From Hydrogenophaga sp. (GTDB lineage Bacteria > Pseudomonadota > Gammaproteobacteria > Burkholderiales > Burkholderiaceae_C): a stretch of DNA of 64,000 nt. This document shows, piece after piece, positions 41,201 through 59,909 of the stretch (positions within the stretch are counted from its first letter, which is position 1; each line of letters begins with the position of its first letter). The stretch spans positions 62,001 through 126,000 of the forward strand of contig JAGXSV010000083.1 of the NCBI GenBank assembly GCA_018333605.1, given 5' to 3'. Both the position numbers and the translations under genes were made by a program. The notes below the pieces were generated by a model. The model did no database searches, had not been told where the DNA came from, and worked only from the letters and a program-made list of their open reading frames with translations.

Positions 41201-43054
41201 ATGGGAAAAGACGCACATGCCCAGATCCTCAAGAGCCTGGCACTGCCCTGCCTTTCGCATGTACTGTTGTGCCTGCCCCATCAGTACGTGGACCGCACGC
41301 GAGCCCTCGAATGCATTGCTCATGCACCACTGAACAGGCCTGTGATGCTTCGCGTCCACTTCCGATCGTTTCGGGCACTGGATCGCGAGGGCAACGCCAC
41401 GCGCAATCGCTTTCCCGCATCCATCGAATGGCAGCTCCTTCTTCCGGATAACAGCTCTGTGAGTACCAGGATGTTCGGTATGACCGTGGACCAGGCCGAG
41501 GCCATTGAGGGGAAGGACAGCACGATTGAGACTCAGGTCATTCAGACCAATGGGAGTCGCTATCTCCGGGGCGCTCGACTACAGCGCCTGACCGGGCGCG
41601 TCGATGCTCTATACACGGGAATCCCTGGAAAGGTCTCGGGCGAAGTGATCTCCGCTGTCGTCGAGGATCAGTGGTCCAGTGATCTGGCGATCAGTGAGGC
41701 AGCCGAAGAAGTGATGCGCTCGCATGTCATCAGTGCGTCCCTTGCGGCCCGCTCGCGAAGCCCTGTGGCCCTGCTGCGTGCCATTCACCGGCCCGACACC
41801 GTTGAGCAAGGAGAGCGTGCGCTGGCGTTTGCCAGACAGTGTGCCATCGACGAAGTACGACATGGGGCGCAAGCAGGTATGAGGAACACGTTGGGGCCAG
41901 CCCGCTTCAGCATTGACGAGCCACTGATCGCAGCGGTGGCAAACCAGCCAGAGACCCTCAGTGAATCCCAGCGCAAAGCTTTGAACACCATTCGCAGGGC
42001 GATCAACCAGCAGCAAAGCGCCAGGATCCTGCTCAACGGCGATGTCGGCAGCGGCAAAACGCTAGTTTTCTGTCTGGCCGCCGTCGCAGTGGCGCGTGCC
42101 TCCAAAGGACTTGCCGCCATCTTGGTACCCAACGAAATCGTTGCACGCCAGATCCACGAACTGACCACAGCGCGTTTCGCCGATCTCAAGCCCCAGCTGT
42201 GTACGGCTGAAGCGGGGGAAATAGATCCAGAGGCGCTCCTGTTGGTGGGTACCCAGGCTCTACTGCACCGTACGCTGACGCAGCCATTGAGCATCCTTGT
42301 GATCGACGAGCAACACAAGTTCTCGGTTGACCAGCGCATGCAGCTCGTGGGCGAGAGCACGCATGTAATCGAGGCCAGTGCGACACCGATTCCACGTTCT
42401 CTGGCTTTGGCACTGTTTGACGGCTGGATACAGGCTCGAATCTCCGGCTCGCCGGTGGCCAAGACCATCGATACACACATCCTGCGCGAGAGCGAGCGCA
42501 ACGCGGCCATCGAGCTGGTGCGTCACCACCTCCAGGAAGGGCGACGCTGCATCTTTCTCTACCCCCGGGTCAATGGGAAAGGATCGGTCACTGAGCGAGC
42601 CAAGGCATTGAATGAGCGTTTTCCCAACAGGGTGGCGGTCATCCACGGCAAGCTCAAACCGGCAGAGAAAGAGGCAGCCTTACAGCAGTTCCGTTCGGGT
42701 CAGGCGCCGATCGCCGTCGCATCCACAGCGGTTGAAGTGGGCGTCGATGTACCAGATGTGGGCATGATGGTGATCAGCGAAGCCGAGCGCTTTGGCCTGA
42801 CACAGCTTCACCAGTTGCGCGGCCGTCTCGTTCGTAACGGCGGTCGTGGTGACTTCGTGATGATGACGGCAGAGGCGACAAAGCGGGCAACGCTGGAGCG
42901 GCTGCATGCATTGCGAAAGCACTCGAACGGGTTTGATCTCGCAGAAGCGGACCTGAAGCTGCGCGGCTTTGGCGATGTCTTGGGCGACATGCAAACCGGC
43001 AAGACATTGGGAACCTTCAAACTGACACGTCTGGTCGCTGAAGACTTCCTCTGA
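41201..43054 (+). CDS. RecG-like superfamily 2 helicase
   Basis: 617 aa. A shortened N-terminal wedge/OB part (residues about 1-250, SLALPCLSHVLLCLPHQYVD, VIQTNGSRYLRGARLQRLTG) precedes the helicase: LSESQRKALNTIRRAI, Walker A LNGDVGSGKTLVFCLAAVAV, DEQH box LVIDEQHKFSVDQRMQL, EASATPIPRSLALAL, IAVASTAVEVGVDVPDVGMM, QLHQLRGRLVRNGGRGDFV, and the RecG-type end FGDVLGDMQTGKTLGTFKL. Motifs Ia-VI and the TRG-like region agree with RecG, which remodels forks and Holliday junctions. It is shorter than E. coli RecG (693 aa). Confidence 0.9.
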   Translation: MGKDAHAQILKSLALPCLSHVLLCLPHQYVDRTRALECIAHAPLNRPVMLRVHFRSFRALDREGNATRNRFPASIEWQLLLPDNSSVSTRMFGMTVDQAEAIEGKDSTIETQVIQTNGSRYLRGARLQRLTGRVDALYTGIPGKVSGEVISAVVEDQWSSDLAISEAAEEVMRSHVISASLAARSRSPVALLRAIHRPDTVEQGERALAFARQCAIDEVRHGAQAGMRNTLGPARFSIDEPLIAAVANQPETLSESQRKALNTIRRAINQQQSARILLNGDVGSGKTLVFCLAAVAVARASKGLAAILVPNEIVARQIHELTTARFADLKPQLCTAEAGEIDPEALLLVGTQALLHRTLTQPLSILVIDEQHKFSVDQRMQLVGESTHVIEASATPIPRSLALALFDGWIQARISGSPVAKTIDTHILRESERNAAIELVRHHLQEGRRCIFLYPRVNGKGSVTERAKALNERFPNRVAVIHGKLKPAEKEAALQQFRSGQAPIAVASTAVEVGVDVPDVGMMVISEAERFGLTQLHQLRGRLVRNGGRGDFVMMTAEATKRATLERLHALRKHSNGFDLAEADLKLRGFGDVLGDMQTGKTLGTFKLTRLVAEDFL

Positions 43055-43148
43055 CTGTTAAGCCATCATCCCATTCCGCAATGGCGGTTTGTAAGGACAG
43101 GTTCGATTGTATCGCGCTGGTGGCGCTTGTACAGCGCAGGAATGCCGC

Positions 43149-43182
43149 AGACCCAGCCCATGCGTTCGCATGAGCTGGGTCT
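43149..43182. repeat. long hairpin between the RecG-like gene and the next gene
   Basis: AGACCCAGC at 43149-43157 pairs with GCTGGGTCT at 43174-43182, and inside CATGCG pairs with CGCATG. This is a nearly perfect 15-bp stem. No T-run follows on either strand, so it is not a canonical intrinsic terminator. It lies in the 136-bp convergent gap. Confidence 0.7.
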
Positions 43183-43190
43183 CTGGAGGG

Positions 43191-43421
43191 TTACGCGGCC
43201 AGCTTGAGCAGTGCATCGATCTTGTCGATGATCTGCGTCGGCTGAGTGGCTGCCAGGTCAGGGTTCGTTTGCGCACCCGATCCGCCCTTGGAGGCAGACC
43301 AGAAGCACATCCCCTCCCCCGTCTTCAACCGAGAAACGGTGAAGCCACGGTAGAGGAAGCGCACGGGGATGCCGTGCCGAAGATCGTTCCTGGTGGTGAT
43401 TTCAATGGTCGGCTTGAACAT
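43191..43421 (-). CDS. hypothetical protein (76 aa) under structured leader A
   Basis: From ATG 43421 (MFKPTIEITTRNDLRHGIPV), with AGGAG nine bases upstream. The product is beta-rich (RFLYRGFTVSRLKTGEGMCF, WSASKGGSGAQTN) with a helical end. It resembles small DNA-mimic or regulator-like plasmid proteins in size only. It is the last gene of the leftward anti-restriction-like block, with its own hairpin leader. Confidence 0.6.
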   Translation of the reverse strand: MFKPTIEITTRNDLRHGIPVRFLYRGFTVSRLKTGEGMCFWSASKGGSGAQTNPDLAATQPTQIIDKIDALLKLAA

Positions 43422-43468
43422 AGTCTGCATCTCCTGGTTTCCGCAACTGCGGTGTTTACAAGGCGATG
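43422..43468 (-). promoter_or_regulatory. structured leader A (RBS-pairing hairpin)
   Basis: In RNA sense: arm CATCGCCT (43468-43461) can pair with AGGAGATG (43435-43428), seven of eight bases, hiding the ribosome-binding site. Between them lies AAACA and the mini-hairpin CCGC-AGTT-GCGG (43452-43441). Upstream hairpin-capable sequence extends to about 43540 (AGCTCGCT/AGCGGGCT). Confidence 0.65.
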
Positions 43469-43538
43469 TATTGGCTTTCTGCTGCACTGGAGTCAACGCA
43501 GTAGGAAGCCCGCTCCGTAAAGCGAGCTGGGGCTGGGC

Positions 43539-44024
43539 TCATCTGGAAGCCCGTCGAAACTCCCAAGGCGGTACCGCCTCGTGGTCACTCCAAACGCCCC
43601 TCTTTTCGTTCTTGGCCTGTTGCTGCAACTGGTACAGCGACTTGTCGGTGACATACCGGTCATAGACCCAAGCCATGCCGGCTGAGACCATGTGGCTTTG
43701 TGCGTCTACGCCATCGCAGCGAACCCGCGCAAGCTTTCGGCCAAAGCGATCTTCGCCCTCAACATCGAGCGACGCGAACTTGCCAAAGCAAATCCGCGCC
43801 AACTCCTGCCTGGACTTGTTGCCAAAGGCCTGCTTGGACTCAGGTGCGTCAATCTGGGACAGTCGCACCCTCACCTGTTGACGCTGCGGCGTAAGTAGCT
43901 TGAGCGTGTCTCCATCGCTGATTCCAACGACCTTGCCTGTCAACTCCCCGGCCATGAGACCAGAGGCGAAGAGCAGGCAGAGGAGCGTCAATAGCGACTT
44001 GTCTTTGAGAATGGGTTTACGCAT
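43539..44024 (-). CDS. secreted staphylococcal-nuclease-like (thermonuclease) protein
   Basis: 161 aa from ATG 44024. Signal peptide (SLLTLLCLLFASGLMAGELT). The SNase fold shows GKVVGISDGDTLKLLTPQRQ, VRLSQIDAPESKQAFGNKSR (Arg/Asp/Glu catalytic set), DVEGEDRFGRKLARV, and MVSAGMAWVYDRYVTDKSLY. It would be a Ca-dependent periplasmic DNA/RNA nuclease. It forms an operon with the two preceding small genes (4-bp gap). Confidence 0.9.
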   Translation of the reverse strand: MRKPILKDKSLLTLLCLLFASGLMAGELTGKVVGISDGDTLKLLTPQRQQVRVRLSQIDAPESKQAFGNKSRQELARICFGKFASLDVEGEDRFGRKLARVRCDGVDAQSHMVSAGMAWVYDRYVTDKSLYQLQQQAKNEKRGVWSDHEAVPPWEFRRASR

Positions 44025-44028
44025 GTCG

Positions 44029-44325
44029 TCAGGCAGCAAGAGCCAGTTGTTGCTTCGGAAGAAAGTCGGGCGCGACCTGCGGTTCAGTGCAGCCTATCAG
44101 CCGTTTGGTCCAGTTGCGCAAACGGGTGATGGTGCCCTGGTCCTCAAGATCGCGAACGTAGAACAAGAGGTCCTCTTCCAGCGACTCCATGCGCCGGTAA
44201 GCATGCACCTTCTTGGCGAGGTTGATCATGCTCTGGCGTCTGGCCCCTCCGGCCCGGACGTTGATCATGATGTTGCTGCAGAGGTTCTCTCGAAACGCTA
44301 CAGCACTGAGTCGTGCCTTTCTCAT
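44029..44325 (-). CDS. hypothetical protein (98 aa)
   Basis: From ATG 44325, overlapping the previous stop (ATGA). Basic N-terminus (MRKARLSAVAFRENLCSNIM) and helical segments (SLEEDLLFYVRDLEDQGTIT, RLRNWTKRLIGCTEPQ). Cytosolic; no family recognised. The 4-bp overlap indicates coupling to the 44690 gene. Confidence 0.6.
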   Translation of the reverse strand: MRKARLSAVAFRENLCSNIMINVRAGGARRQSMINLAKKVHAYRRMESLEEDLLFYVRDLEDQGTITRLRNWTKRLIGCTEPQVAPDFLPKQQLALAA

Positions 44326-44690
44326 GACAGCGACTCCGCCGGGGTACGCAACCCCAACTCGGCGATGGCATCCCTGTCCCAGCGGCGCAATACCCCTTTT
44401 GGATCTGCTTCGACCGCATGCGCCCAGCGACACGCAGCAGCCGATGATGCATCGTAGGCAATCTCCACCTCTCGGTAGACGCCAAACTCGTGCGGATTGC
44501 TGCAGATGCGAAGCCCTGCAAGGACATCCTCACACTCGGCGGGAACAGGATAGTGCCGGAGAATTTGGCGCCTGTATGCCGCGGTTTCACGCCGTGACCG
44601 GGTGGAATATTCATCGTCGCCGACCTGAGCGCACTGCTCTTCAGAAGGCGCCGGCCCGATCGACAGATAGTCAAGATTGAGTTTCAGCAT
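44322..44690 (-). CDS. hypothetical protein (122 aa) under structured leader B
   Basis: From ATG 44690 (MLKLNLDYLSIGPAPSEEQC). Acidic/helical (RRETAAYRRQILRHYPVPAE, CEDVLAGLRICSNPHEFGVY, EVEIAYDASSAAACRWAHAV). First gene of a three-gene unit with the 98-aa protein and the nuclease. Translation start is controlled by leader B. Function unknown. Confidence 0.65.
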   Translation of the reverse strand: MLKLNLDYLSIGPAPSEEQCAQVGDDEYSTRSRRETAAYRRQILRHYPVPAECEDVLAGLRICSNPHEFGVYREVEIAYDASSAAACRWAHAVEADPKGVLRRWDRDAIAELGLRTPAESLS

Positions 44691-44779
44691 GTGACTCCTT
44701 TTCCGCAGTTGCGGTGTTGATAAGGAGTCGGTCACACAAAGTGACTTTTGACTGGGGGCGAAGGGCCCACACTCAAAAG
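44691..44779 (-). promoter_or_regulatory. structured leader B (RBS-pairing hairpin)
   Basis: RNA-sense order: P1 CTTTTGA/TCAAAAG (44779-44745) with inner GGGC/GCCC, P2 GTCAC/GTGAC (44745-44731), then P3, where GACTCCTT (44729-44722) pairs perfectly with AAGGAGTC (44700-44693). The latter contains the ribosome-binding site. Inside P3: CAACA and mini-hairpin CCGC-AACT-GCGG. Confidence 0.75.
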
Positions 44780-44854
44780 CTTCCTGTGGTGATTCTGGGT
44801 ATCCGTCACAACCAGAGCAACATGGAATGCTGCATTCAAACCGCCTTGATTTGG

Positions 44855-44894
44855 AAAAATGCTGGTCCTCCGCCCGATTCGGGACGGAGGACCA
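44855..44894 (-). terminator. Rho-independent terminator of the 1657-aa gene
   Basis: Minus strand: TGGTCCTCCG pairs with CGGAGGACCA, followed by GC and a T-run (44859-44855). It separates the large methylase/helicase gene from the leader B unit. Confidence 0.9.
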
Positions 44895-44898
44895 AGCT

Positions 44899-47800
44899 TC
44901 AATCGGCCATTGCCAGTGCGCTCACGTCATCTGCATTGATCTCCAGCATGCTGTCGATCTCAGCCTGACGCTCAAGCAACAACTGCAGCTTCTTCTCGTA
45001 CACAAAGGGGCAATCCGCCCGCTGTCGTTCAAGCAGCCGCCCCTGCAGTTCCAGCAGCCGCGCTTCCGTCTTTTGAGCCTGATGGGCGATCTCCTCTGCA
45101 AACCACGAAGGCTTGAAGTACTCGATCAGATCCTGCCGATTTCTCGGCAGGGCCCTAAGCCGCATGGTGAAGGCCTCACTCTGTAGCCGGACTTGTTCGA
45201 CAGGACCAGCGTTCCACACTTCCTCGATTTCGATGACCACATTGCCCAATTGAAGGAGGACATGTGGCTCATGAGAACTTCGCCGGTCTCTGTAGTCCTT
45301 GAGGAACTTGCGAATTTTCTGCCCTCGTTTGAGAACAGCTTCTGCGCAATTTTCAAAGTCTGCGAATCGATTCCCGTCAACCTCGAACCCACGCCCATCG
45401 ACCCTGGCACGCTCACCCAAGGATCGGACGTTCTGAAGATGATCTCGCGCTGATGCGATGCCCATCTCCAGGTAGCTGACTTCGCGTCGGTTCTTGTACT
45501 GCTCATTGTCGTGCACCGACTTGAGCGCCTGCAGTCTTGCGACCTCGGCGTCCACGCCTGCCTTTTCGATCACCATGGGATTCCCGCTGGCCAGCGCCTT
45601 GACCTCGGCAAACGACAGTGCTTGCATGGAGACATCCTCCACTGTGCGCACACTACCGTTGTTCTCCATCACTTGCGCAATGAAATTTGCCTTGCGCTCC
45701 AGCCCCTGCCACATGTAGACGTCGAAAGTGGCCTCGGTCGCGTACCGGTAGATCCACACCTCTTCGTTCATGTTGCCTTGCCGGATGATGCGTCCGTCGC
45801 GTTGTTCTACGTCTCGCGGCCTCCAGGGTGCATCCAGATCATGCTTGGCGACCAGACGGTCCTGCACATTCGTTCCGAACCCCATCAGCTCCGTTGACCC
45901 GATCAGGACCCGCTTCTTTCCCGCCCGCACCATGCGATGCAATTGGGCTTTCTGCTTGTCCGTCTTGAAGTCCTGTGCGAACGCGATTTCTTCTGCAGGT
46001 ACACCCTTGGCGATCAGTGCCGCCTTGATGTGCTCATAGACCGAGAAGCTGTTGCCAGGCACACTCAAGTCACAGAACACCAGCTGCGTCAGACGTTCCT
46101 GAATGCTCTTCTCCCAGTGCCAGTAGACACGCTCGATGCATGCCTCGACCTTGGTACCCGGCTCTGGCACCAGCGTGGGGTTCACACATCGCATATCCAG
46201 CGCAGCCTTGCGGCCATCGTTGGTGATGCACAGCATGTTGTCCACTTCCGGTTTGACTTCACCCGTGCGGACCCGCTCGGCTCTTTCTACCAGCGACTGC
46301 ACGAAGCGACGCTGTCCTTCTGTCGGTGGCACGGTGACCACCGTGTGGCTTCCCCCCACCAGCTTGGGCTCGGGAAGGTTCAGTTGCTTCTTGGTCCGGA
46401 TCTCTGCGACTTCGCGGAAGATCAGCATCAGCTCGGGCACGTTCACAAAGCTTGCAAAGCGGGTGTGCAGTCGGTAGCCAGAGCCCTCGGGCTTGACTTC
46501 CACACACGTCACCTCACGCGCAAAGTTCGCCGCCCAGGCGTCAAAGCTGTCGATGTGCAGTTCGCGCAGTCTTTCCTCCTGGAGGTAGGTCTGCATGATG
46601 AACATCTCGCCGATCGTGTTGGAGATCGGCGTCGCCGTCGCAAAGCACAGGCCGTAGCCGTCATTGCTCCTCTTCTCGAAGATCACCCGGGACTTCAGGT
46701 AAAGGTCCAGCGCCCGCGATGAGCAGCTGCTGGAAATGCCCGGGATGCGCTTCTTCTTCGTGAAGAAAAAGAGGTTCTTGAACAGATCGGCTTCGTCGAC
46801 CAGCACGGTGTCGATGCCCAGCTGCTCGAACCCGAGAACCCCCGAGTCCTTCTCATTGCTGACCAGGCTCTCCAGCTTGGTTTCGACCATCTTCGCTGCC
46901 CGTGACGCTTCCCGCACCACGTTCTGATCAGTGACACCCATGACCGCTTCGCGTGCCTTGAGCTTCTGCTCGCTGATGAACTCCCTGACCACCGCTTCGC
47001 TCAGGCCGATGCGCCCAAAGGTCGCGTGCGTGACGATCACGCAGTCCCAGTCGTTCGTTGAGATGCGCATCAGCAACTCACGCCTTGCATCGCCCACCAG
47101 GTCGTCCTTGCTTGCAGCCAGGACCTTCGCGCGAGGGAACGCACGCAGGTACTCTCCAGCGAACGCCTCGAGCATGTGATTGGGCACAACCAGGATCGGC
47201 TTGTTGGCCACCCCCAGTCGCTTGAGCTCTTGCGCCACACAGATCTGGATCAGCGTCTTACCTCCTCCGACCGCCAGTGCGTACAGCGTGTTGCCGCTGA
47301 CGATACCTCGCCAGATCGAGTCCTTCTGTGCATCGCGCAGCGTGATCGCCGCACTCAACCCAGGGATGACCAGGTGGCTACCGTCATAGCTTCGGTTGAC
47401 ATGCCCGTTGTAGAGCATGTTGTATTTCTCCTGCAGCGCCGCGGACCTGTCCTTGTCGGACATCAGCCAGTCAACGAACGACTTCTCGATGGTGCGTGCC
47501 TTGTCTTGCGCGGCCAGCGATTCGTCCTTGTTGATCACGCGCCGTTCTTTTCCGTCTACTTCTATCGTGTCGTACACCTCCGGTGTTTGTTGGTTGAGCA
47601 AGTTCCCCAGGATGTCCCAGAAGTTCTTGCGAGATGTCCCCCACGTGGTGGTGAAGGTTTCGTGCTTTGGGTGACGGAAGCTGATCACCCATGAGGCGGT
47701 TTCGACCACTTGCGTGACCTCTACCGAGTAGTAGGAGAAGTTCGAATGCTCGCCCGAGAACCGACGTCCGATCTTGAACGTCTCTTCGAGCCACTGGCGC

Positions 47801-49872
47801 ACGTGCTCCTCTCCGATCCAGGGAACGCCCAGCTTGATGCCGACCTGCTCCAATGGAATGGCGGGAGGCACCACTGCCTTGAGCGCTGCCACGTTTCTTT
47901 GGAACGACGAGTCCCCCTTGACCGCGGCTTCGGCGATTCGGAGCTTTTCCCTCACGGGTCCACTTAGGTACTCCATCGAATCGACCCACTTGCCGCTTCG
48001 CGGATCCTGGTAGATCCGTTCACTGGCCAGCAGCCGCTCGACCACCTCCTCTTCAGGCACACCCATCGCGCCGGCCATCCACGCTGTGTCCATCCGCCCG
48101 AAGCGGTTGTAGGACAGCGCAATCGCGTCTTCGATGGTGTCCGCGCTCTCCTTGAGCACAGCGTTGGACACGGTGCTTTCCTGGAAGATGTCAGCCTTCA
48201 GAGCAGCTTCCTGCTCGTCGTCCCAGATCTCCAGGGACCACAACAGCGGCGCGTGGCTGTCGTTGCGGTACAAGCGCCGGTTTCCAGCGTCCAGGAGAAA
48301 GCCATGCTGCTTGACGAAGGCATCGTAGAGCCGATTGAGCTCAGCGCGATACTGCTGGGCTGCGTTGCTCTTGACCGAATCGGCCTCCAGCAGCTGCAGC
48401 ACGCAGTCCCTGATGCGTGTCATTCCCTCGATCCGTCGCAGCTGATGGGCTGGATAGTTCTCGGTGTCGGACACGCCGTTTCTGCCATCGATAAGCATCA
48501 GGCGCCCCTCTTCGTCGAAGAAGAACCCGTGGGCTACGTAGCTCTTGAGCCCCTTGGGGTCTGCTACCCGTTGCACAGGACCATCGCTGACGTTGATGGT
48601 GCTATCGAAGGTCCCCTGAATGCATGCTTCCTCGCTGAGCGCCATCAGTCGCTTTTGCCAGTCATCGTGCGCTTCGACGCCCAGCCGCGTGCCCCAGCGA
48701 TTGCTCGCGAGGCTGTACTTGCCGAGAACCCAATGGGGGTTCTTCACGAAAAGGGCGTTGACCTTCGAGGACTCAACCCAATACGTGTAGTTGGCGGTGC
48801 AGTATTCCCTTGCGGGGTTGGCCTTGTTGGGCAGTTCAAAGTTGTTGTCCCAGGGACCAACCTCGACTGACTTGTGTCGCCGCTGCAGGATGAGGACATC
48901 TGCAACAACGTCGGTGCCGCCGAGCCTTGCAAAGGCAGCCGAAGGCAGCCGGATGGCCATCTTCAGCTCCGCGCGTGAGCACAGGTGGGCCAGGAACTCC
49001 CGCGAGCCGTTCTCCAGCGTTGAGCTGGTGGTGATCAGCGCCACAATCCCGCCCGGTCGCACCAGTTCGATGGACTTGATCAGGAAGTAGTTGTGGATGT
49101 TCAGCTTGAGCTTGTCCAGGCGGGCGTCGCTCACCCGGTAGTTGCCGAATGGTGCGTTGCCGATCACCAGATCAAAGCGGCCGTTTTCACGGCTGCCCAG
49201 ATCCTGCAGCCCAATGGGCATGACGGTGGTCTGCCGGTCTGCATAGAGCTCGTCTGCCAGCGCTGCCGTGATGGGATCAGGGTCGATCATCACCACTCGG
49301 CTGTCCTGCCGCAAATCCTCGGGCATGGCACCAATAAAGTTGCCCGTTCCGCAGGAAGGATCCAGCAATCGGCCTCCTTTGAATCCCATGCGTTGGACGA
49401 TTCTCCAAATGGCCCGCACCACGGATGGTTCCGTGTAGTAGGCCGAAAGCACCGATTCCAATGCACCGTCGTACTCTGCGGTCGTGAGCAATTCCCGAAG
49501 GCGCTGCTGTTCTTGCGGGTGCTTGGTGCTGGCTGCAAAGACATCAGAGAGACCGCCCCAGCCGCTGTAGGCGACCATGGCACGCTTCTCTTCATCTGTG
49601 GCGACCATACGGCCCTCTGCACGCATGGTGCGAAGGGTTTCGATGGCCCTGATGTTTGCTGCGATCTTGGAGCTTTCGGTGCTCAGGTGCGCCAGCATTT
49701 CATCCCGGAGGACGAAGAGATCGCGCGCTGGCTTGCGGGGTTTGACCACGCTATCGACGGCCACCTGAATCTCACTCTTGCATGCCGGTGCCTCCTGGAC
49801 GGGCCTTTCGAGAACTTCGAAGTCCAGAAAGTCGAACAAGGACGTTTGGCGTTCATCAATTTTTCGTTTCAT
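44899..49872 (-). CDS. N12-class DNA methylase/SNF2-like helicase fusion (DarB-like, candidate anti-restriction)
   Basis: 1657 aa. N-terminal VAYSGWGGLSDVF, then an N6-adenine methylase core with motif I DPSCGTGNFIG (about residue 175) and motif IV GNAPFGNY (about 237). A middle linker leads to a superfamily 2 helicase: Walker A ALAVGGGKTLIQI (about 870), motif II VLVDEADLFKNLFF (about 1024), TATPISNTIGEMF, MGFGTNVQDRL, and motif VI DVEQRDGRIIRQGN (about 1352), followed by a coiled-coil C-terminus. Related giant proteins (P1 DarB, plasmid COG4646 proteins) protect incoming DNA from type I restriction. It lies directly under leader C. Enzymatic activity is inferred. Confidence 0.85.
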   Translation of the reverse strand: MKRKIDERQTSLFDFLDFEVLERPVQEAPACKSEIQVAVDSVVKPRKPARDLFVLRDEMLAHLSTESSKIAANIRAIETLRTMRAEGRMVATDEEKRAMVAYSGWGGLSDVFAASTKHPQEQQRLRELLTTAEYDGALESVLSAYYTEPSVVRAIWRIVQRMGFKGGRLLDPSCGTGNFIGAMPEDLRQDSRVVMIDPDPITAALADELYADRQTTVMPIGLQDLGSRENGRFDLVIGNAPFGNYRVSDARLDKLKLNIHNYFLIKSIELVRPGGIVALITTSSTLENGSREFLAHLCSRAELKMAIRLPSAAFARLGGTDVVADVLILQRRHKSVEVGPWDNNFELPNKANPAREYCTANYTYWVESSKVNALFVKNPHWVLGKYSLASNRWGTRLGVEAHDDWQKRLMALSEEACIQGTFDSTINVSDGPVQRVADPKGLKSYVAHGFFFDEEGRLMLIDGRNGVSDTENYPAHQLRRIEGMTRIRDCVLQLLEADSVKSNAAQQYRAELNRLYDAFVKQHGFLLDAGNRRLYRNDSHAPLLWSLEIWDDEQEAALKADIFQESTVSNAVLKESADTIEDAIALSYNRFGRMDTAWMAGAMGVPEEEVVERLLASERIYQDPRSGKWVDSMEYLSGPVREKLRIAEAAVKGDSSFQRNVAALKAVVPPAIPLEQVGIKLGVPWIGEEHVRQWLEETFKIGRRFSGEHSNFSYYSVEVTQVVETASWVISFRHPKHETFTTTWGTSRKNFWDILGNLLNQQTPEVYDTIEVDGKERRVINKDESLAAQDKARTIEKSFVDWLMSDKDRSAALQEKYNMLYNGHVNRSYDGSHLVIPGLSAAITLRDAQKDSIWRGIVSGNTLYALAVGGGKTLIQICVAQELKRLGVANKPILVVPNHMLEAFAGEYLRAFPRAKVLAASKDDLVGDARRELLMRISTNDWDCVIVTHATFGRIGLSEAVVREFISEQKLKAREAVMGVTDQNVVREASRAAKMVETKLESLVSNEKDSGVLGFEQLGIDTVLVDEADLFKNLFFFTKKKRIPGISSSCSSRALDLYLKSRVIFEKRSNDGYGLCFATATPISNTIGEMFIMQTYLQEERLRELHIDSFDAWAANFAREVTCVEVKPEGSGYRLHTRFASFVNVPELMLIFREVAEIRTKKQLNLPEPKLVGGSHTVVTVPPTEGQRRFVQSLVERAERVRTGEVKPEVDNMLCITNDGRKAALDMRCVNPTLVPEPGTKVEACIERVYWHWEKSIQERLTQLVFCDLSVPGNSFSVYEHIKAALIAKGVPAEEIAFAQDFKTDKQKAQLHRMVRAGKKRVLIGSTELMGFGTNVQDRLVAKHDLDAPWRPRDVEQRDGRIIRQGNMNEEVWIYRYATEATFDVYMWQGLERKANFIAQVMENNGSVRTVEDVSMQALSFAEVKALASGNPMVIEKAGVDAEVARLQALKSVHDNEQYKNRREVSYLEMGIASARDHLQNVRSLGERARVDGRGFEVDGNRFADFENCAEAVLKRGQKIRKFLKDYRDRRSSHEPHVLLQLGNVVIEIEEVWNAGPVEQVRLQSEAFTMRLRALPRNRQDLIEYFKPSWFAEEIAHQAQKTEARLLELQGRLLERQRADCPFVYEKKLQLLLERQAEIDSMLEINADDVSALAMAD

Positions 49873-50018
49873 GTCGTTTTCCTTTCCCGATGCCCGGGTG
49901 GTTGTGAAAACGACGGCTCAGAGCCATTCATCAGGGGTCAAGCCCTCATGAATGGGTCCGTGGTGGTGGTGGTGACTGATGGTCACTGAGCACGCACATC
50001 CTCATAAGATGTGCGTGC
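49873..50018 (-). promoter_or_regulatory. structured leader C
   Basis: P1: GCACGCACATC/GATGTGCGTGC, 11 bp (50018-49990). P2: CCATTCAT/ATGAATGG (49955-49924) with inner GGG/CCC. P3: GTCGTTTTC (49914-49906) with GAAAACGAC (49881-49873), 9 bp, ending at the start codon and including the end of the ribosome-binding site. Inside P3: ACAACCA and mini-hairpin CCCG-(5)-CGGG. Confidence 0.75.
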
Positions 50019-50031
50019 CAAGCGACTGCTC

Positions 50032-51072
50032 TCAGGTAGGACCTGCCGATTCACCGAAAGCACCTTTGGGCAGCTCCCAGTTCTCTCCGACATAGACCTC
50101 CATCGTCATCTCTCGCGAGTTGGCGGCATCGATCCACTTCTGCTCGCACTCATAGGGAGTCCCCATGTCGGCCAGCTGGTCGACTGAGTGCTTGCGTTGG
50201 ATCGTCACGCCAAAGCGTTTCTCGTAGGTGCTGATGCTGTCGAAGGCATCGGGTGCGACGAGCCTGATGGTTGCCCATTGGTTCTTGCTGCCGAAGATGC
50301 ACTGCCTGCAGCTCAGACGCCCCCAACCCAGGTGATATCCAGGGTGAGCCCGAATGCCATGGCGCCGGATGATGTCCCAGACCTGCTCCTCAAGCCAGGC
50401 ATGAATGGGGCGCCAATGGTCGATATGCCGTTGGTGTTGGCGCCCATGCCGCAGATCCGCTCGATGCGTCTCGCAGGTCCTGTACTTGGCTCGCGCCGCG
50501 CTCTCCTGCGCTCGCTCCCCGGTCACCACCAAGGTCTTGCCTGATCGATACCGCTGGTCATGCCTCAGGTACGTCGACCCGATGTCGATTTTGAGGTACG
50601 CCGAGCACCATCTTGTCGACAGATCGGCGCTGACCTGCGGGAACTTCAAGCGAGTGCCAGCAGGCCCCTGTCCGCCATGAGCGACATGGCCGCCTTTGCC
50701 GTCGGGGATCATCACTGCACCCGTGGGACTGTTCTGACGCTGCATCTCCTTCTCGAAACCGCCAGCCCGCCAGCTCGTCTCAAAGGACATGCCAAGGTGG
50801 TCGGCCACCGCCTTGCAGTACGCCTCTGTCACAGGCCAGTCCATGAGCTTCGAGCCTTCAGCACCATCCACCAAGTGGTGGTGTAGCACGATGTTCCCGG
50901 CAGGCACACCGATCTCCAGGAGGTGGAGCACACAGGCCAGGGAGTCCTTTCCACCCGAAAAGAAAACGACGTATCGGTCGTAGCTCAGGGGATCGAAGGG
51001 GGCCTCAGGTGACGACTGGCCTTGCTCGTGAGCGCCCTCGGACGCCCACAGATCTCGTTGCACGTAGTCCAT
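50032..51072 (-). CDS. phosphoadenosine phosphosulfate reductase-family protein (DndC/CysH-like)
   Basis: 346 aa from ATG 51072. The PP-loop ATP pyrophosphatase motif is VVFFSGGKDSLACVLHLLEI near residue 35-55. HHHLVDGAEGSKLMDWPVTE, TLVVTGERAQESAARAKYRT and a C-terminal Cys pair LSCRQCIFGSKNQW follow. The fold is shared by PAPS reductases, DndC of DNA phosphorothioation and tRNA-modifying enzymes. No DndA/B/D/E or sulfate-assimilation neighbours are present, so a DNA or nucleotide modification role in defence evasion is suggested by context only. Leader D precedes it. Confidence 0.8.
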   Translation of the reverse strand: MDYVQRDLWASEGAHEQGQSSPEAPFDPLSYDRYVVFFSGGKDSLACVLHLLEIGVPAGNIVLHHHLVDGAEGSKLMDWPVTEAYCKAVADHLGMSFETSWRAGGFEKEMQRQNSPTGAVMIPDGKGGHVAHGGQGPAGTRLKFPQVSADLSTRWCSAYLKIDIGSTYLRHDQRYRSGKTLVVTGERAQESAARAKYRTCETHRADLRHGRQHQRHIDHWRPIHAWLEEQVWDIIRRHGIRAHPGYHLGWGRLSCRQCIFGSKNQWATIRLVAPDAFDSISTYEKRFGVTIQRKHSVDQLADMGTPYECEQKWIDAANSREMTMEVYVGENWELPKGAFGESAGPT

Positions 51073-51171
51073 TGCTTTCTCCATTCCCCATACGGGGTGT
51101 TCTGAAAGCGATGGCGTAGAGCCACTCTCATGGAGTCGGTAACCACATGAGAGTGGCCCCGAAGGGCCACT
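51073..51171 (-). promoter_or_regulatory. structured leader D with overlapping hairpins
   Basis: P1: AGTGGCCC/GGGCCACT (51171-51152). P2: CCACTCTCATG/CATGAGAGTGG, 11 bp (51156-51122). P1 and P2 share 51152-51156, so they compete. P3: CCAT-GCTTT (51114-51105) with AAAGC-ATGG (51078-51069), which includes the start codon. Inside: AGAACA and mini-hairpin CCCC-GTAT-GGGG, then the GGAG ribosome-binding site. Confidence 0.75.
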
Positions 51172-51201
51172 AGATGAAGGCGTTCTCAAGCTCAGAATCG
51201 A

Positions 51202-51393
51202 TCACGCCGGCGTCCCGAGGTCATCCTTGTCCGCCAGGCAGATCCTGTCGCTGACTTTCAGCACACTCGCCTTGTCGCAGGACTGCATGAACGCATTGGC
51301 CAGGGCCGCTCCATTGGGCGTATTCGGGAAGTCAGCCAACAACGAAAAGCGTCTTCCATAGAGCGTAACGGTTCCTGGAGGTGTCGCACTCAC
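51202..51393 (-). CDS. hypothetical protein (63 aa)
   Basis: Starts MSATPPGTVTLYGRRFSLLA. Short alpha/beta protein (NTPNGAALANAFMQSCDKAS, VLKVSDRICLADKDDLGTPA). Three bases after the preceding gene's stop, third gene of a three-gene unit under leader E. Unknown function. Confidence 0.6.
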   Translation of the reverse strand: MSATPPGTVTLYGRRFSLLADFPNTPNGAALANAFMQSCDKASVLKVSDRICLADKDDLGTPA

Positions 51394-51396
51394 GGA

Positions 51397-51651
51397 TCAA
51401 TCCCTCCCAAAGGCGATCACGCGCTGACGGCGTTCATGCCGACGCTGTGCGGACAGAACGGGGGGAGTCTTCCACGGAAGCCACTTATCGACAATGCCGG
51501 CGCGGCGATTGATCCGTTCGTGGATCGAGCCATCGGCAATACTGGCCAGCCAACGGTAGCGCGCTGCGGTGTTGTAGACCATGCCCCGGCCGTCGAAGTG
51601 GCAGCGTTTGGGCGCACGAGCGAGGAAATCCCGAATCTCGTTGACATCCAT
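51397..51651 (-). CDS. hypothetical protein (84 aa)
   Basis: Starts MDVNEIRDFLARAPKRCHFD. Contains RCHFDGRGMVYNTAARYRWL and basic C-terminal NRRAGIVDKWLPWK, RRHERRQRVIAFGRD. It starts 2 bp after the 51654 gene's stop (operon). The strongly basic C-terminus suggests nucleic-acid binding. Family unknown. Confidence 0.6.
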   Translation of the reverse strand: MDVNEIRDFLARAPKRCHFDGRGMVYNTAARYRWLASIADGSIHERINRRAGIVDKWLPWKTPPVLSAQRRHERRQRVIAFGRD

Positions 51652-51653
51652 GC

Positions 51654-51935
51654 TCAGGCCTCCTCAATCGGTGTATCCGAGACGCAGACCGAGTTTATGA
51701 AGACCACCTGATCGTGCTGCAACAACAGAGCCTTGCGTGCCAGCGCCGCTTGTTGCTCGCTCATGCGATGCCGCTGGACCTCCGCATCCCACATTTCCTG
51801 CTCGAACGCAGAAATTGCAGCTTTGCGATCAGGAACGTGAAAGATCAGGATACTGTCCTCCTCATCTCCAGGGATTCGCCCTGTGACAGCCCAGTACCGG
51901 TTGCCAGTCCCCTGCTCGCTGTGTGATGTGTTCAT
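51654..51935 (-). CDS. hypothetical protein (93 aa) under structured leader E
   Basis: Starts MNTSHSEQGTGNRYWAVTGR. Acidic (IPGDEEDSILIFHVPDRKAA, ISAFEQEMWDAEVQRHRMSE) with a C-terminal LQHDQVVFINSVCVSDTPIE strand. Acidic surface and small size are reminiscent of DNA-mimic anti-restriction proteins, but there is no family match. First gene of a three-gene unit. Confidence 0.65.
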   Translation of the reverse strand: MNTSHSEQGTGNRYWAVTGRIPGDEEDSILIFHVPDRKAAISAFEQEMWDAEVQRHRMSEQQAALARKALLLQHDQVVFINSVCVSDTPIEEA

Positions 51936-52058
51936 GTGTTTGCCTTTCCCTCATCCGAGGTGGTTGAAAAGGCAAAAGCCACACGGATAAACGCCCAAGC
52001 GCTCAATCGTCTGGTCTTGCGCCAGTCTGAAGGCCCGCCAGCATATGGGCTGGCAGGC
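51936..52058 (-). promoter_or_regulatory. structured leader E
   Basis: P1: GCCAGC/GCTGGC plus outer GCC/GGC (52058-52033). P2: weaker GCGC/GCGC (52022-51999). P3: TTTGCCTTT with AAAGGCAAA (RNA sense; arms 51976-51968 and 51947-51939), 9 bp, covering the ribosome-binding site GGGAAAGG. Inside P3: CAACCA and mini-hairpin CCTC-GGAT-GAGG. Confidence 0.7.
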
Positions 52059-52086
52059 GTTCAGGTTGAAGTAAGGGGCGCTGTGA

Positions 52087-52476
52087 TCAGGCGTCGTCAC
52101 CCGTCTGTGCCCGGTACAGGACCTCTGCAGTGATGCAAAGCAGTTCGTGGTCCTGCATAGCGGCATCATCAAGTGGTCGATATCCGATCACCGACTCGTA
52201 AAGCTCGTTCAGGCCCTGGCGACCGACAACCGTACGCTCAGCGATCACTTGGTCATTGAGGTCCAGAACCGTGATGCGGATGACATCCGTTGCGAAGTCT
52301 GCAACCTGAAGGTCTGGTCGATTTGGTGCGCTCACCTGGACATCACCCAGCGGCAGTTTGACCGGGCAAACGAGCGGCCCGGTAGGCTGACCACGCTCAT
52401 CCACTGATGGTTGCAGCGCGATACCACCCTCTGCGATGCGGGCGAGGCGATAGTGTTGATCCATCTTCCCACTCAC
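52087..52476 (-). CDS. hypothetical protein (129 aa)
   Basis: Starts MSGKMDQHYRLARIAEGGIA, overlapping the preceding stop by 4 bp. Contains beta-rich VKLPLGDVQVSAPNRPDLQV, DFATDVIRITVLDLNDQVIA and helical LNELYESVIGYRPLDDAAMQ. Acidic. Second gene of the leader F unit. Unknown family. Confidence 0.6.
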   Translation of the reverse strand: MSGKMDQHYRLARIAEGGIALQPSVDERGQPTGPLVCPVKLPLGDVQVSAPNRPDLQVADFATDVIRITVLDLNDQVIAERTVVGRQGLNELYESVIGYRPLDDAAMQDHELLCITAEVLYRAQTGDDA

Positions 52477-52907
52477 GCCGGCAGGCGACGCTTCACTTCT
52501 GCGCCGATGCGTTCCATGATCGCCATGTGCCCGAGATTGGCCACGTCGATGAACCTCCAGTAGGTGCGACCCAGTCTTGCGTAGATCGTTGTCATCCGGC
52601 CGCTGTAGCGCTCAGCGAACGCAAAGCTCTCACCCGCCGGTGTGCGCACCCAGTTGTCGGGCGGCAGCATCTCAAGAGCATCATTGAACTGATCTTCGCT
52701 GATCATCTCCGGCGACGTTCGCAGATGCGCTTCCTGTTGCTCGATGACCTCGTCAAAGTCACGCAGCTCGATCTTGGGATAGCGCTGGCGAATCTCCTCG
52801 ATCGTTTCTCCGCTGTAGAGCCCCTTCCCTTCAGTGGTCATCTGGTCGATGACTTCCGGGTAGCCGGCATCGTTGACATTGACGAACACCTGGTGCTTGA
52901 GTTCCAT
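52473..52907 (-). CDS. hypothetical protein (144 aa) under structured leader F
   Basis: From ATG 52907 (MELKHQVFVNVNDAGYPEVI), preceded by AAGGAG. Highly acidic (ETIEEIRQRYPKIELRDFDE, VIEQQEAHLRTSPEMISEDQ) with a C-terminal RYSGRMTTIYARLGRTYWRF segment. The composition fits DNA-mimic type proteins, without sequence identity to ArdA or ArdB that I can recognise. Confidence 0.65.
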   Translation of the reverse strand: MELKHQVFVNVNDAGYPEVIDQMTTEGKGLYSGETIEEIRQRYPKIELRDFDEVIEQQEAHLRTSPEMISEDQFNDALEMLPPDNWVRTPAGESFAFAERYSGRMTTIYARLGRTYWRFIDVANLGHMAIMERIGAEVKRRLPA

Positions 52908-53010
52908 GTCCAGTTCTCCTTGATGGTGCCGAATCCTCGGCGTTGATGAAGGAGAGGCCAGTCGGCTTTCTTCAGCGTCTTCGCTCAAGAAAGCCTCCTG
53001 TGATGGAGGC
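52908..53010 (-). promoter_or_regulatory. structured leader F with overlapping hairpins
   Basis: P1: GCCTCC/GGAGGC (53010-52993). P2: GGCTTTCTT/AAGAAAGCC, 9 bp (52995-52964), with inner AGCG/CGCT; P1 and P2 share three bases (52993-52995). P3: TCTCCTT with AAGGAGA (arms 52955-52949 and 52921-52915), directly covering the ribosome-binding site. Inside P3: TCAAC and mini-hairpin GCCG-(6)-CGGC. Confidence 0.75.
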
Positions 53011-53029
53011 GTGAAAGGCTGATCAGCAC

Positions 53030-54454
53030 TTATCCGGTGGCCAGCGCGAGCTGATAAACCGGTGCGACATGCTGCCTTGTGCCAGATGCCTGGCGGTACC
53101 AGTTCAACAGGCTACTGCCAATTCTCTCGAACAGTGCCTTGACGGGCGTGAACAGCACGCTTTGACCCAGCAGCTGGTGTGCCCTGCTCTGCGACATGCC
53201 CTCAATCAGGTGCTCAGGAATCTCTTTGATCCTGGCATGTTCGTTGGCTGTGAAGAGCCGGTAGACACCATCGCGCTCAGGATGCGCCAGCAAGGGGTCG
53301 GTGCTTCCACCCTTGGCATAGCCCTTGCGGAGCACTGGAACCTGACTGTCCCCTGGCTTGACGATTTGCATTGCAAATCCGTTCCCCTTCTCCTGGTCAC
53401 GATGCTGCTTGACCTTGAGGTAGTTGAAGTCGCGCCAGGCCGGGTCGTCGGCCGGTACCGCCTCCATGACCTCGGCCAGCGTTCGCACTGCCGTGCAGAC
53501 TGGCGTGAGGTTCTCAAGCTCGATTCCGATCCCCTGAGTAGCTGCCACGAGGAACCAGCGCTTTCGATGCTCAAGAACACCGAAACTCTTGCCATCGAGC
53601 ACCACCTCCTTGACAGCGTAGCCGCAGTCTCGCAAGTGCTGTCGCATGATCTGAGCCGAGGCGCTCTGCGCGTACTCAGTGACGCATTCGACGACCACCA
53701 CAGAGGGCTGTGTGCGCTGGACCACCATCAGAAAGCTGGCTGCCAGGTGACCGACTTCCGGGTGCTCCTCCATCATGCCCAACTTGCGCTTGGACACTCC
53801 GGCACGTGACGCCCCGGAACACGGGATACCCACTGCGAGGATGTCCACTTGAGGAATCTTGGACATGAGCCATTCATCTTGGACCACCTCCTGCATAGGC
53901 GCCCCAAGGCCCATCGTAGTGCCTTGCCAGACCTCGTTGTGCACGGAGGCGTGCTCCAGCAAGTCGGTGTCGATCTCGTTGGCTATGGCCAGCTGGGATT
54001 CGATGCCTGCCTGCTTGAGTCCGGTGTGAGCAGCGTTGTCCAAGATCCCACCTCCGTGAGACAGGGACGCCGTTGTCAGCCTGCCCTGGCTCAGGTTCTC
54101 CCGCAAGCGCGAAAGCCGCCGCAGGGCGTTGAGCTCCGATGCCATGGGCATCATGCAGATCATGTTGTCCTGAATCACCAGTCTCACAGCAGCCAGCCCG
54201 TCCAGTGGATCGAGGGCGGCTTTGCTGTTGATGTCGATGACGGGAAGAACTTGGCCGTTGGCTTCCTTGCGGCTCACGCGGTATTGCCCTTGGGAATCCA
54301 CGCGCAGAACCACCCGGCGGTTCTCGTGATCGGTGTGTCGGGAGTAGGTGACCCCCGCGCCAAAGCCGGCATCTGCCAGCACCTTCGTGTCAAGGTAGAT
54401 ACGCGGCGAACCTCGGTGTGTGGTGAGGTTGCGAATAATGTATCGCCTGATCAT
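53030..54454 (-). CDS. C5 cytosine-specific DNA methyltransferase-like protein
   Basis: 474 aa. The N-terminal about 120 residues are an extra domain. C5-MTase-like motifs: SHGGGILDNAAHTGLKQAG (motif I position), AIANEIDTDLLEHA, catalytic DILAVGIPCSGASRAGVS with Pro-Cys, VVVVECVTEYAQS (ENV-like motif VI), GKSFGVLEHRKRWFLVAA (motif VIII), and a C-terminal LLGQSVLFTPVKALFERIGS. It probably methylates plasmid DNA at cytosines as protection against host restriction; the target is unknown. The sequence is divergent in motifs I and VI. Preceded by leader G. Confidence 0.85.
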   Translation of the reverse strand: MIRRYIIRNLTTHRGSPRIYLDTKVLADAGFGAGVTYSRHTDHENRRVVLRVDSQGQYRVSRKEANGQVLPVIDINSKAALDPLDGLAAVRLVIQDNMICMMPMASELNALRRLSRLRENLSQGRLTTASLSHGGGILDNAAHTGLKQAGIESQLAIANEIDTDLLEHASVHNEVWQGTTMGLGAPMQEVVQDEWLMSKIPQVDILAVGIPCSGASRAGVSKRKLGMMEEHPEVGHLAASFLMVVQRTQPSVVVVECVTEYAQSASAQIMRQHLRDCGYAVKEVVLDGKSFGVLEHRKRWFLVAATQGIGIELENLTPVCTAVRTLAEVMEAVPADDPAWRDFNYLKVKQHRDQEKGNGFAMQIVKPGDSQVPVLRKGYAKGGSTDPLLAHPERDGVYRLFTANEHARIKEIPEHLIEGMSQSRAHQLLGQSVLFTPVKALFERIGSSLLNWYRQASGTRQHVAPVYQLALATG

Positions 54455-54573
54455 GTTGCTCTCCTTTCTGCATCAGCAGTGATTGAAAGGAGAGTGCCCG
54501 TACGAGCCTTCCTCAGCCGCCAGGCTCAGGAAGGCCCACTTGACAAGCGCAGGAGCGCGTCATGCCTTGTCAA
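54455..54573 (-). promoter_or_regulatory. structured leader G
   Basis: P1: TTGACAAG/CTTGTCAA (54573-54540). P2: GCCTTCCT/AGGAAGGC with inner AGC/GCT (54535-54506). P3: CTCTCCTTT with AAAGGAGAG (arms 54494-54486 and 54467-54459), 9 bp, which contains the ribosome-binding site. Inside P3: CAATCA and mini-hairpin CTGC-TGAT-GCAG. Confidence 0.75.
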
Positions 54574-54717
54574 ATCATCGTACGAACCATTTTGTTCTGC
54601 CTGTTCCGCAATTGCGAGTAGGGTGGCAGAAAGGCGCCGAAACTGAATTGATCGACGCAGCTCGATTTTCGCAGAAAACTATGCGCGCTGGCAAGGTTGC
54701 GTGCAAGCGCTTCATCT

Positions 54718-54741
54718 TGAGCGGACAAATTTGTCCGCTCA
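54718..54741. repeat. 24-bp perfect palindrome, copy 4 of 4
   Basis: Core identical to the other three copies, flanked by T and A. The outer TGA on the minus strand is the stop codon of the DUF882 gene. It lies about 265 bp upstream of the cytosine methyltransferase start. Nothing else is seen in 54574-54717. Confidence 0.85.
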
Positions 54742-55362
54742 GCGTCCTGTCCAGGACCGCAACCGACCATCGTCAATGTGGACAAACTCCCTTTGGACGT
54801 ACAGCCCGACACCTCCCCCTTGGAGATACTTTGCCGCTTCCGCCATGCCTGAGGATGACATGCCTGGCATGCGGCCGTCCCATGCCCTTCCTTGCACATG
54901 GAGGCTGTTCCGAGCAGCCCCTTCGATGCGGCTGTTGGTTCTTCGACTGCGATGTCCAGACGTTGTGATCAGAGGCTCATCAACCCCTTGAACCCTGGCG
55001 ATTCCCTGAAGCCCACAAAGGATGTCCAGTAGCACAGGGGACATCTGCACGGCAGCGTCTTCCCGTACATCGCGCATGAGTCTGCAAATCTGAACATAGG
55101 GCTCCATCAGGAGCTGGCCGTTGGCGAAATAAACGCCCTTGAACTCTTCCACTCCGTTCGATGTATGGCGCCTCAACCAAAGGTGCCTCGGCAATGACCA
55201 GAAATCCCTTTCTCCGGCTCTCGCTAGAGCCGTTGGTGCGAAGAGGGAGCCAGCAAGAGCAGCAAAGGCCCCCTTCATCAGGCGCCTTCTTGCGTTCTGC
55301 CAGTCCAGCGATTGCTGCCCTGTAGGAGACGTTTTTTCATCAAAACAGCATGTCGTATCCAT
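54739..55362 (-). CDS. DUF882/peptidase M15-like protein with Tat-type signal
   Basis: 207 aa from ATG 55362 (55377 is an alternative). N-terminal NARRRLMKGAFAALAGSLFA has a twin-arginine pattern followed by a hydrophobic stretch ending ALARA. The C-terminal domain SGHRSRRTNSRIEGAARNSL, HVQGRAWDGRMPG and GGVGLYVQREFVHIDDGRLR is the YcbK/DUF882 zinc-peptidase-like fold with His/Asp ligands. The Asp in RAWDGR aligns with the metal-site AxD. It may trim peptidoglycan for pilus or T4SS assembly. Confidence 0.8.
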   Translation of the reverse strand: MDTTCCFDEKTSPTGQQSLDWQNARRRLMKGAFAALAGSLFAPTALARAGERDFWSLPRHLWLRRHTSNGVEEFKGVYFANGQLLMEPYVQICRLMRDVREDAAVQMSPVLLDILCGLQGIARVQGVDEPLITTSGHRSRRTNSRIEGAARNSLHVQGRAWDGRMPGMSSSGMAEAAKYLQGGGVGLYVQREFVHIDDGRLRSWTGR

Positions 55363-59800: not shown

Positions 59801-59909
59801 GATTGGATTCTGAGGATGCGGCGTTGCTATTGCAGAGCGAATGAGCCTCCTGGAGGCAACTCATTCGAACTCGAAGGTTGGTCGTCGCACAGATATGGTC
59901 GTGCCCTGT

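Follow-up and report, generated by a model that had tools for sequence, protein, structure and literature searches.

What is an RNA structure doing directly in front of seven start codons, and why before these genes in particular? The question is raised by a 64,000-nucleotide stretch of Hydrogenophaga sp. (GenBank assembly GCA_018333605.1, contig JAGXSV010000083.1, positions 62,001 to 126,000), called the window below, in which a sequence-only reading had described seven leaders of one shared architecture. These leaders are present, on the minus strand and before the ATG codons at 43421, 44690, 49872, 51072, 51935, 52907, and 54454 (positions without a prefix are those of the window). The observation is confirmed as real and as larger than described, with upstream hairpins and copies outside the window that go beyond it. 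In the best explanation, each leader is a copy of a single cis-acting RNA module of ~100 nt, which large conjugative plasmids and related elements of one family place before many of their transcription units. We consider it rather probable that the module is a translational gate specific to these elements, which controls a group of DNA-metabolism genes and would be read in trans.

Leader Architecture and Copies on the Contig

Every one of the seven leaders contains a hairpin, here hairpin (iii), whose 3′ arm includes or adjoins the Shine–Dalgarno sequence, together with a linker around CAACA and a mini-hairpin closed by a C-G pair. As had been proposed, hairpin (iii) pairs the Shine–Dalgarno region with an upstream arm. 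The description of an outer stem enclosing a mini-hairpin in all seven leaders holds generally and needs correction at two of them: at 43421 the stem is interrupted by an internal G.A mismatch, and at 54454 the best predicted fold has a different inner hairpin (AUCA/UGAU), with none in the centroid. A stem within a stem was rejected as a distinctive feature by itself, as a descriptor that omits the linker matches 31 places on one strand of the window and 32 on the other, and 5, 11, and 16 places per strand of Markov random sequence. It is the combination of linker, stem, and position that is significant and distinctive.

The window lies on a contig of 155,653 bp (C83), which makes up 5.7% of an assembly of 2.74 Mb and 83 contigs that is 62% complete. 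Related loci were entered through the N6-methylase/helicase protein of the window, with homologs in Giesbergeria anulus (L005, 52% identity), a Giesbergeria metagenome-assembled genome (L006, 53%), and Hydrogenophaga aromaticivorans (L007, 62%); three more distant loci of this protein were excluded from the models, and a search with the C5 methyltransferase led to the Polaromonas plasmid CP087967.1 (L011). L005, L006, L007, and L011 each carry leaders of this type before several genes. Three covariance models, whose E-values are rough by the tool's own statement, were built. R1 holds 11 leaders with linkers padded with N by hand, because MAFFT, applied to 21 leaders, paired the arms wrongly, and R2 holds 21 matches from four sources; the seven window leaders took part in both. 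The sources of R2 and its E limit of 3.1 were chosen to exclude rows taken to be false (one place within the helicase gene, places in L005) and L005 entirely, and one row retained in training, L011:31266, does not adjoin a start. R3 holds 52 matches, none of them from C83; since these were gathered using R2, which had been trained on the seven leaders, R3 is held out in its parameters and not wholly in discovery.

Such a model, built without any row from C83, recovers all seven leaders when run against the whole assembly (E 5.0e-4 to 1.2). R3 finds 28 places at E ≤10, and the top 26 are all on the minus strand of C83, start-adjacent, and inclusive of the seven; only two matches fall on other contigs, from rank 27 (E 9.87). 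R2 finds 25 places at the same limit, all on C83: 24 are minus-strand matches, and the remaining one lies opposite a palindromic copy. The other 82 contigs gave no significant match with either model, and the copy number on C83 is 26 to 34, the higher figure counting weaker start-adjacent matches. A possible degenerate leader, not reported by the models, lies on the plus strand at C83:50480-50720 (L050:10481-10720).

The seven hairpins (iii), all on the minus strand, were given folding z-scores against 200 dinucleotide shuffles, and they are listed here with their R3 E-values. They lie at 43429..43467 before a 76-aa gene (start 43421; E 1.2, z -2.56), 44693..44729 before a 122-aa gene (start 44690; E 5.5e-4, z -5.09), and 49874..49913 before the N6-methylase/helicase gene (start 49872; E 0.017, z -3.07), whose homolog is also preceded by a leader in L007 and by a reduced form in L005 and L006. 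The remaining four lie at 51072..51111 before a PAPS-reductase-like gene (start 51072; E 0.33, z -3.05), 51940..51975 before a 93-aa gene (start 51935; E 5.0e-4, z -3.84), 52915..52955 before a 144-aa gene (start 52907; E 0.0018, z -3.10), and 54459..54494 before the C5-cytosine methyltransferase gene (start 54454; E 0.37, z -4.19).

Covariation, Constant Letters, and Start Codons

The arms differ between leaders and stay complementary, as the sequence-only reading had noticed in the window. In the 21 rows of R2, 93.0% of 227 pair cells are canonical vs 69.3% after shuffling, and 10 of 11 pairs are changed on both sides. R2 yields 104 matches over 361 kb, and in all of these 93.1% of 1114 pair cells are canonical, compared with 70.2% in shuffled and 45-58% in slid controls; the corresponding score is 0.626 vs 0.214 shuffled and at most 0.196 in slid controls. 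Homologous DUF932-like genes in five elements (51-59% identity) retain the fold despite different arms.

For the following counts, 84 of the 104 matches were kept as start-adjacent leaders; of the other 20, some lacked a start inside the permitted distance, some were palindromic leaders matched on the opposite strand, and the rest belonged to L059 or to one place in L007. The C-G pair closing the mini-hairpin is found in 80/80 of these leaders, one A of the 5′ linker in 84/84, and an A in the 3′ linker, on the 3′ side of the mini-hairpin, in 76/80. The two A residues stand in an asymmetric internal loop inside hairpin (iii), next to the C-G pair; both arms, and the mini-hairpin apart from that pair, vary freely yet stay paired. 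Because the fixed letters stand within freely varying helices, the loop is a putative binding site, a likeness that we read from sequence conservation.

The matches are also tied to start codons, as the earlier reading had held for the seven. Among R2 matches of at least 28 bits, 43/46 have a start -1 to 8 nt downstream, and the next lower bands give 15/17 and then 12/14. With training rows removed, the cumulative counts are 26/27 (≥28 bits), 39/42 (≥22), 51/56 (≥18), and 65/83 (all matches), with 24% at random positions. On plasmid pPNAP01 of Polaromonas naphthalenivorans CJ2, which is absent from all models, 7/7 matches at E ≤1 end 1-9 nt before annotated starts, and in two further stretches 12/15 matches are start-adjacent.

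Upstream Hairpins and the ~100-nt Module

Hairpin (iii) is the 3′ end of a module of ~100 nt with two upstream hairpins, a terminator-like hairpin (i) and a hairpin (ii). A hairpin (ii) ending no more than 22 nt from (iii) is found in 82/84 leaders (shuffled mean 32.3), and in 70/84 the 5′ arm of (ii) is also overlapped by the 3′ arm of a hairpin (i) (shuffled mean 12.9); as the two share columns, they are mutually exclusive. The typical order is CCCGC-UUCG-GCGGG-UUUUCUACUGGG-loop-CCCAGCAGAAAGCC, a few letters, hairpin (iii), and AUG. An overlap of at least 3 nt between (i) and (ii) occurs in 57 modules, 46 of which are 95-135 nt long, and 42 of these were aligned. In these 42 selected modules, helix (i) is 90.9% canonical vs 81.0% shuffled and helix (ii) 93.6% vs 81.7%, with 11/12 pairs of (ii) changed on both sides.

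In the window, where all these features are on the minus strand, the 52907 leader carries hairpin (ii), GGCTTTCTTGAGCG/CGCTGAAGAAAGCC, at 52964..52995, and a terminator-like hairpin (i) at 52993..53010 whose 3′ arm overlaps the 5′ arm of (ii). The same overlap is seen in the 51072 leader, with (ii) at 51118..51160 and (i) at 51152..51171. Hairpin (ii) is at 54502..54539 in the 54454 leader, and the inner part of (ii) is at 43479..43504 in the 43421 leader; in the 49872 and 44690 leaders (ii) is at 49924..49955 and 44744..44780, respectively, and an overlapping hairpin (i) was found in neither. No convincing hairpin (ii) stands upstream in the 51935 leader. Inspection by eye had suggested a further mini-hairpin (ii′) located between (ii) and (iii), which was dropped (63.1% canonical vs 60.0% shuffled).

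Distribution in Related Elements

Besides C83, the RNA stands before genes in eight related elements. Five have named hosts, namely Polaromonas (two plasmids including pPNAP01; Comamonadaceae by their records), Giesbergeria (two), and Hydrogenophaga, and three come from genomes of the window genome's own family (G385, G379, and G377). Eight further genomes or records were scanned: these three, G399 (L005), G400 (L006), G401 (L007), the Polaromonas plasmid, and G213. In all but G213, matches at E <1 are confined to one region and one orientation per genome or record and weaker ones are scattered; the exception is one match on the Polaromonas plasmid, ~60 kb outside its main region. The match in G213 looks false (GC 0.80, no start). 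The smallest leader-bearing region, in G379, spans 4 kb, and those of G399 and G400 exceed 70 kb. In G379, five gated genes, one with a ParB-type helix-turn-helix domain, lie beside a phage-type integrase in a 3.7 Mb contig (L056:14472-18388 and L056:11884-13083), which suggests an integrated or decayed relative.

Wider searches used samples with strict filters and were not exhaustive. Matches were found in 5/399 genomes of the family (R2, E 0.05), with the false-looking G213 among them; in 3/399 of the order (R2, E 0.02), where G513 and G687 are palindromes judged unrelated; in 2/398 of the phylum (R2, E 0.01), the other being G856; and in 1/369 of the class (R3, E 0.005). Each of these counts includes the window's own genome, which is the sole match in the class. 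In plasmids with a homolog of the C5 methyltransferase (L012-L019), R1 gave no start-adjacent match and R2 gave two, both in L012 and the better one within an annotated gene, and R2 gave none in L061 or L062. Whole plasmid records of Piscinibacter, Paraburkholderia graminis, B. ambifaria, pKF715A, and P. dioscoreae had no match at E ≤1, and a Cupriavidus record had one weak match. Two exact patterns occurred 0 times in viral contigs, and blastn of one module against plasmids and phages gave no match.

Genes Behind the Module

The seven gated genes of the window, all on the minus strand, include three with recognizable domains. The C5 cytosine DNA methyltransferase lies at 53030..54454 (PF00145, 1.9e-21), the PAPS-reductase-like protein at 50032..51072 (PF01507, 1.5e-10), and the N6-methylase and helicase protein of 1657 aa at 44899..49872 (PF07669, 1.2e-7, and PF02384), with homologs in 6/7 other elements compared. 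The other four have no Pfam family: the 144-aa gene at 52473..52907 and the 122-aa gene at 44322..44690, each with homologs in 3/7 other elements, the 93-aa gene at 51654..51935, and the 76-aa gene at 43191..43421.

Within three blocks of C83, and by a rough gene call, the module stands before 28/43 minus-strand genes with an upstream gap >40 nt and before 0/15 with a shorter gap; in the window's own block it stands before 6/6 called genes with a gap >40 nt. In 20/34 cases on C83, hairpin (iii) lies 65-120 nt after the previous stop, about the length of the module itself. Clear leaders on C83 precede the C5 methyltransferase, the N6-methylase/helicase, the PAPS-reductase-like gene, and many small proteins without known function, and a DUF932/TIGR03299-like gene (below the TIGR03299 cut-off) has a leader at R3 E 5.05. 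Weak leaders (14.6-17.5 bits, absent from the list of R3) precede genes for ribonucleotide reductase, DNA polymerase III beta, and an SbcD-like phosphoesterase, the last of these below the Pfam cut-off and with homologs on plasmids annotated as DNA repair exonuclease. Homologs in G385 also have leaders, namely polymerase III beta (31.6 bits), SbcC (15.6), and RadC (17.1).

C83 also carries conjugation genes (TrbC/VirB2, a VirB11-type ATPase, a VirB9-like protein below cut-off, TraI_2, and TraD-type). The stretch at 59718-59804 (C83:121718-121804), between conjugation genes, has 78-81% DNA identity to the two Giesbergeria elements and may be a short gene missed by the gene call. At C83:33717-34415 (L049:13717-14415) the contig encodes a regulator of the LuxR type that has an autoinducer-binding domain, and elsewhere it encodes a LuxI-type autoinducer synthase; judging from these predicted genes, transfer of the element may be linked to quorum sensing.

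What the Module May Do

If the leaders are a translational gate, hairpin (iii) would keep translation of the gated genes low by default. A trans-acting factor (a protein or ligand, of the element or of the host) would read the constant internal loop, and its binding or release would alter access to the Shine–Dalgarno sequence. Methyltransferases, helicase, replication and repair proteins, and small proteins might then be raised together, perhaps upon arrival in a new cell, which is a guess from gene content. The pair of hairpins (i) and (ii) would add a second layer in the gap between genes, acting on transcription or RNA stability. Hairpin (ii) needs RNA that is made after the U-tract and therefore should not be a classical anti-terminator. 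We infer both the repression by hairpin (iii) and the existence of a reader. The most far-reaching version, a post-transcriptional regulon of ~30 genes under one RNA code, in which a choice between (i) and (ii) is combined with a Shine–Dalgarno lock and a single factor reads the loop to release establishment genes jointly, is possible but doubtful.

Predicted accessibility is consistent with the gate, in that the unpaired probability of the Shine–Dalgarno sequence is 0.22 in 34 gated genes vs 0.39 in 56 other minus-strand genes (p 3.4e-4), and the mean predicted energy of hairpin (iii) is -12.7 kcal/mol. Several points should nevertheless be counted against it. Only the Shine–Dalgarno sequence differs, the wider start region being equally accessible in both sets (0.46), and the gene calls behind this comparison are crude. 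Pfam scans of 122 of the 224 called genes of C83 showed no Hfq, CsrA, ProQ/FinO, or NusG family, with the remaining 102 calls (many probably spurious) outside the scan. As for a small-RNA partner, seeds complementary to the linker and outside modules fall in called genes, and there is no conserved intergenic candidate. The module is missing from 15/43 units of the three blocks, 8 of the 34 copies on C83 are absent from the 26 of R3, and R2 matches of 14-18 bits are start-adjacent in only 14/27. Selection weighs in the same direction, as the 84 leaders were chosen for start adjacency, the covariation counts for 21 and 104 rows rest on model-fitted alignments, which favours structure, and the 42 modules were picked because both upstream helices could be drawn, which biases their percentages upward. 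Some of the 82 hairpins (ii) also have implausibly long loops, for example at 51935.

The module might instead be mainly transcriptional: in long transcripts, (i) would terminate stray transcription after each gene, a polymerase modified for antitermination would read through, and (ii) and (iii) would be loading sites. The overlap of (i) and (ii) far above shuffled expectation (70/84 vs 12.9) and the module-sized gap of 65-120 nt after the previous stop in 20/34 cases fit this account, as does the count of sigma-70-like promoters in 20 kb (1 found vs 3.6 expected), and there is a precedent in the conjugation operons of pLS20, with >20 internal terminators and processive antitermination (PMC8955417). 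We regard it as unlikely all the same. The partner of the U-tract lies downstream, so (ii) would form too late to stop termination at (i); terminators in 20 kb show no excess (23 found vs 18.5 +/- 4.0 expected) and many U-tracts are interrupted; the NusG family was not seen among the 122 scanned genes; and an exact boxA (GCTCTTTAACA) or ops element is present in 0/84 leaders. The place of the Shine–Dalgarno sequence in a conserved stem is also left unexplained.

It is likewise improbable that the module is a passive constitutive brake, or a device for RNA processing or stability, with no trans-acting reader. Hairpins do occur at many gene junctions, and no regulator was found in the scanned genes, but a stem alone would do for a passive brake, which does not account for three features that stay constant while the arms diverge between elements, namely the linker A, the 3′ A, and the C-G pair.

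Hairpins of single-stranded DNA acting in conjugation, through priming or as single-strand promoters in the entering strand, would suit the shared orientation of nearly all copies on C83, and single-strand promoters are known in leading regions. This reading is very improbable, given that the position is locked to the start codon and Shine–Dalgarno sequence and that G-U pairs in helix (ii), with U-G in 16/42 at one pair, fit RNA. Least credible is an RNA thermometer of the FourU type, for although 29/84 leaders have UUUU among the first 10 nt of hairpin (iii), the stems contain C-G pairs and have the mean energy given above, and the conserved internal loop is unexplained.

Comparison with Known Systems

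The sequence-only reading had proposed the radC RNA motif or a relative of it. Identity with radC RNA (RF01754) did not hold up: over the eight leader-bearing genomes or records it passes the cut-off once, on contig C187 of G377, and never at a leader; it has 0 matches in the whole window, and a search of 43000-55000 up to E 10 returned no radC. The sole match on C83 (C83:43243-43385) is below threshold and is not a leader. RF01754 is a multi-hairpin structure of 149 positions with a conserved CGAUCUUCAAGGCU, and the leaders lack that fold and sequence when the alignment is compared by eye. The likeness lies in the setting, as both are leader RNAs near DNA-modifying or anti-restriction genes; here these are the methylase genes of the window and a RadC-domain gene on C83 (L049:4444-5016; PF04002, 1.2e-38; homologs in 5/7 other elements compared), whose G385 homolog (48% identical) is the one with the weak leader. 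The match in G377 (G377:C187:26182-26331, L082; 118 bits) is a genuine radC RNA, and the same genome carries the new leaders on another contig.

Other known signals gave little. Rfam 15 at gathering score had 0 matches in the window and in L011-L015, and searches up to E 5-10 in window positions 43000-55000, L006, L007, and L055 returned nothing at gathering score. The exact boxA-type string GCUCUUUAACA, the only form of this antitermination site looked for, is in 0/84 leaders. GGA, which CsrA/RsmA recognizes in the loop of a hairpin at the ribosome-binding site, is in 2/104 inner loops, and the integron attC core GTTRRRY is in 2/84 leaders; in these features the leaders resemble neither class. 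A literature search limited to open-licence papers, and so no proof of absence, found no description of this leader RNA.

Riboswitches, ribosomal-protein leaders, and FourU thermometers also hold the ribosome-binding site in a stem that can open, usually at one or a few genes per genome, whereas here there are 26-34 copies on one contig. Hairpins over the Shine–Dalgarno sequence are known; we know of no multi-hairpin module repeated ~30 times on one conjugative element. Promoters are the usual explanation for the timing of plasmid establishment genes, and an RNA lock common to ~30 genes of one element would, if true, offer another means of restraining a group of genes and then releasing it. 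The invariant internal loop offers a handle (bait) for finding the reader, and the covariance model can label members of this element family.

The conAn system of pLS20-type plasmids likewise has a long conjugative gene block with terminator-like hairpins between genes; it consists of one protein and one RNA at the operon start, whereas the present module recurs before many units and includes the Shine–Dalgarno sequence (PMC8955417). Nearest in behaviour, to our knowledge, are the start-associated sequences and their extended form (SAS/ESAS) of cluster K mycobacteriophages. Each phage genome has 11-19 copies, mostly in one orientation, which lie at the ribosome-binding sites of some of its genes; about half have an inverted repeat directly upstream, and their function is not known (PMC3203893). 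The leaders likewise recur many times directly before the start codons of a mobile element, with hairpins upstream. SAS is a fixed 13-bp sequence, GGGATAGGAGCCC, of which there are 0 copies on either strand of eight element sequences, whereas the leaders vary in sequence while keeping their structure and have a conserved internal loop and, mostly, two overlapping upstream hairpins. The unexplained SAS/ESAS of mycobacteriophages can be said to have a counterpart in these leaders, on conjugative elements of Gram-negative bacteria.

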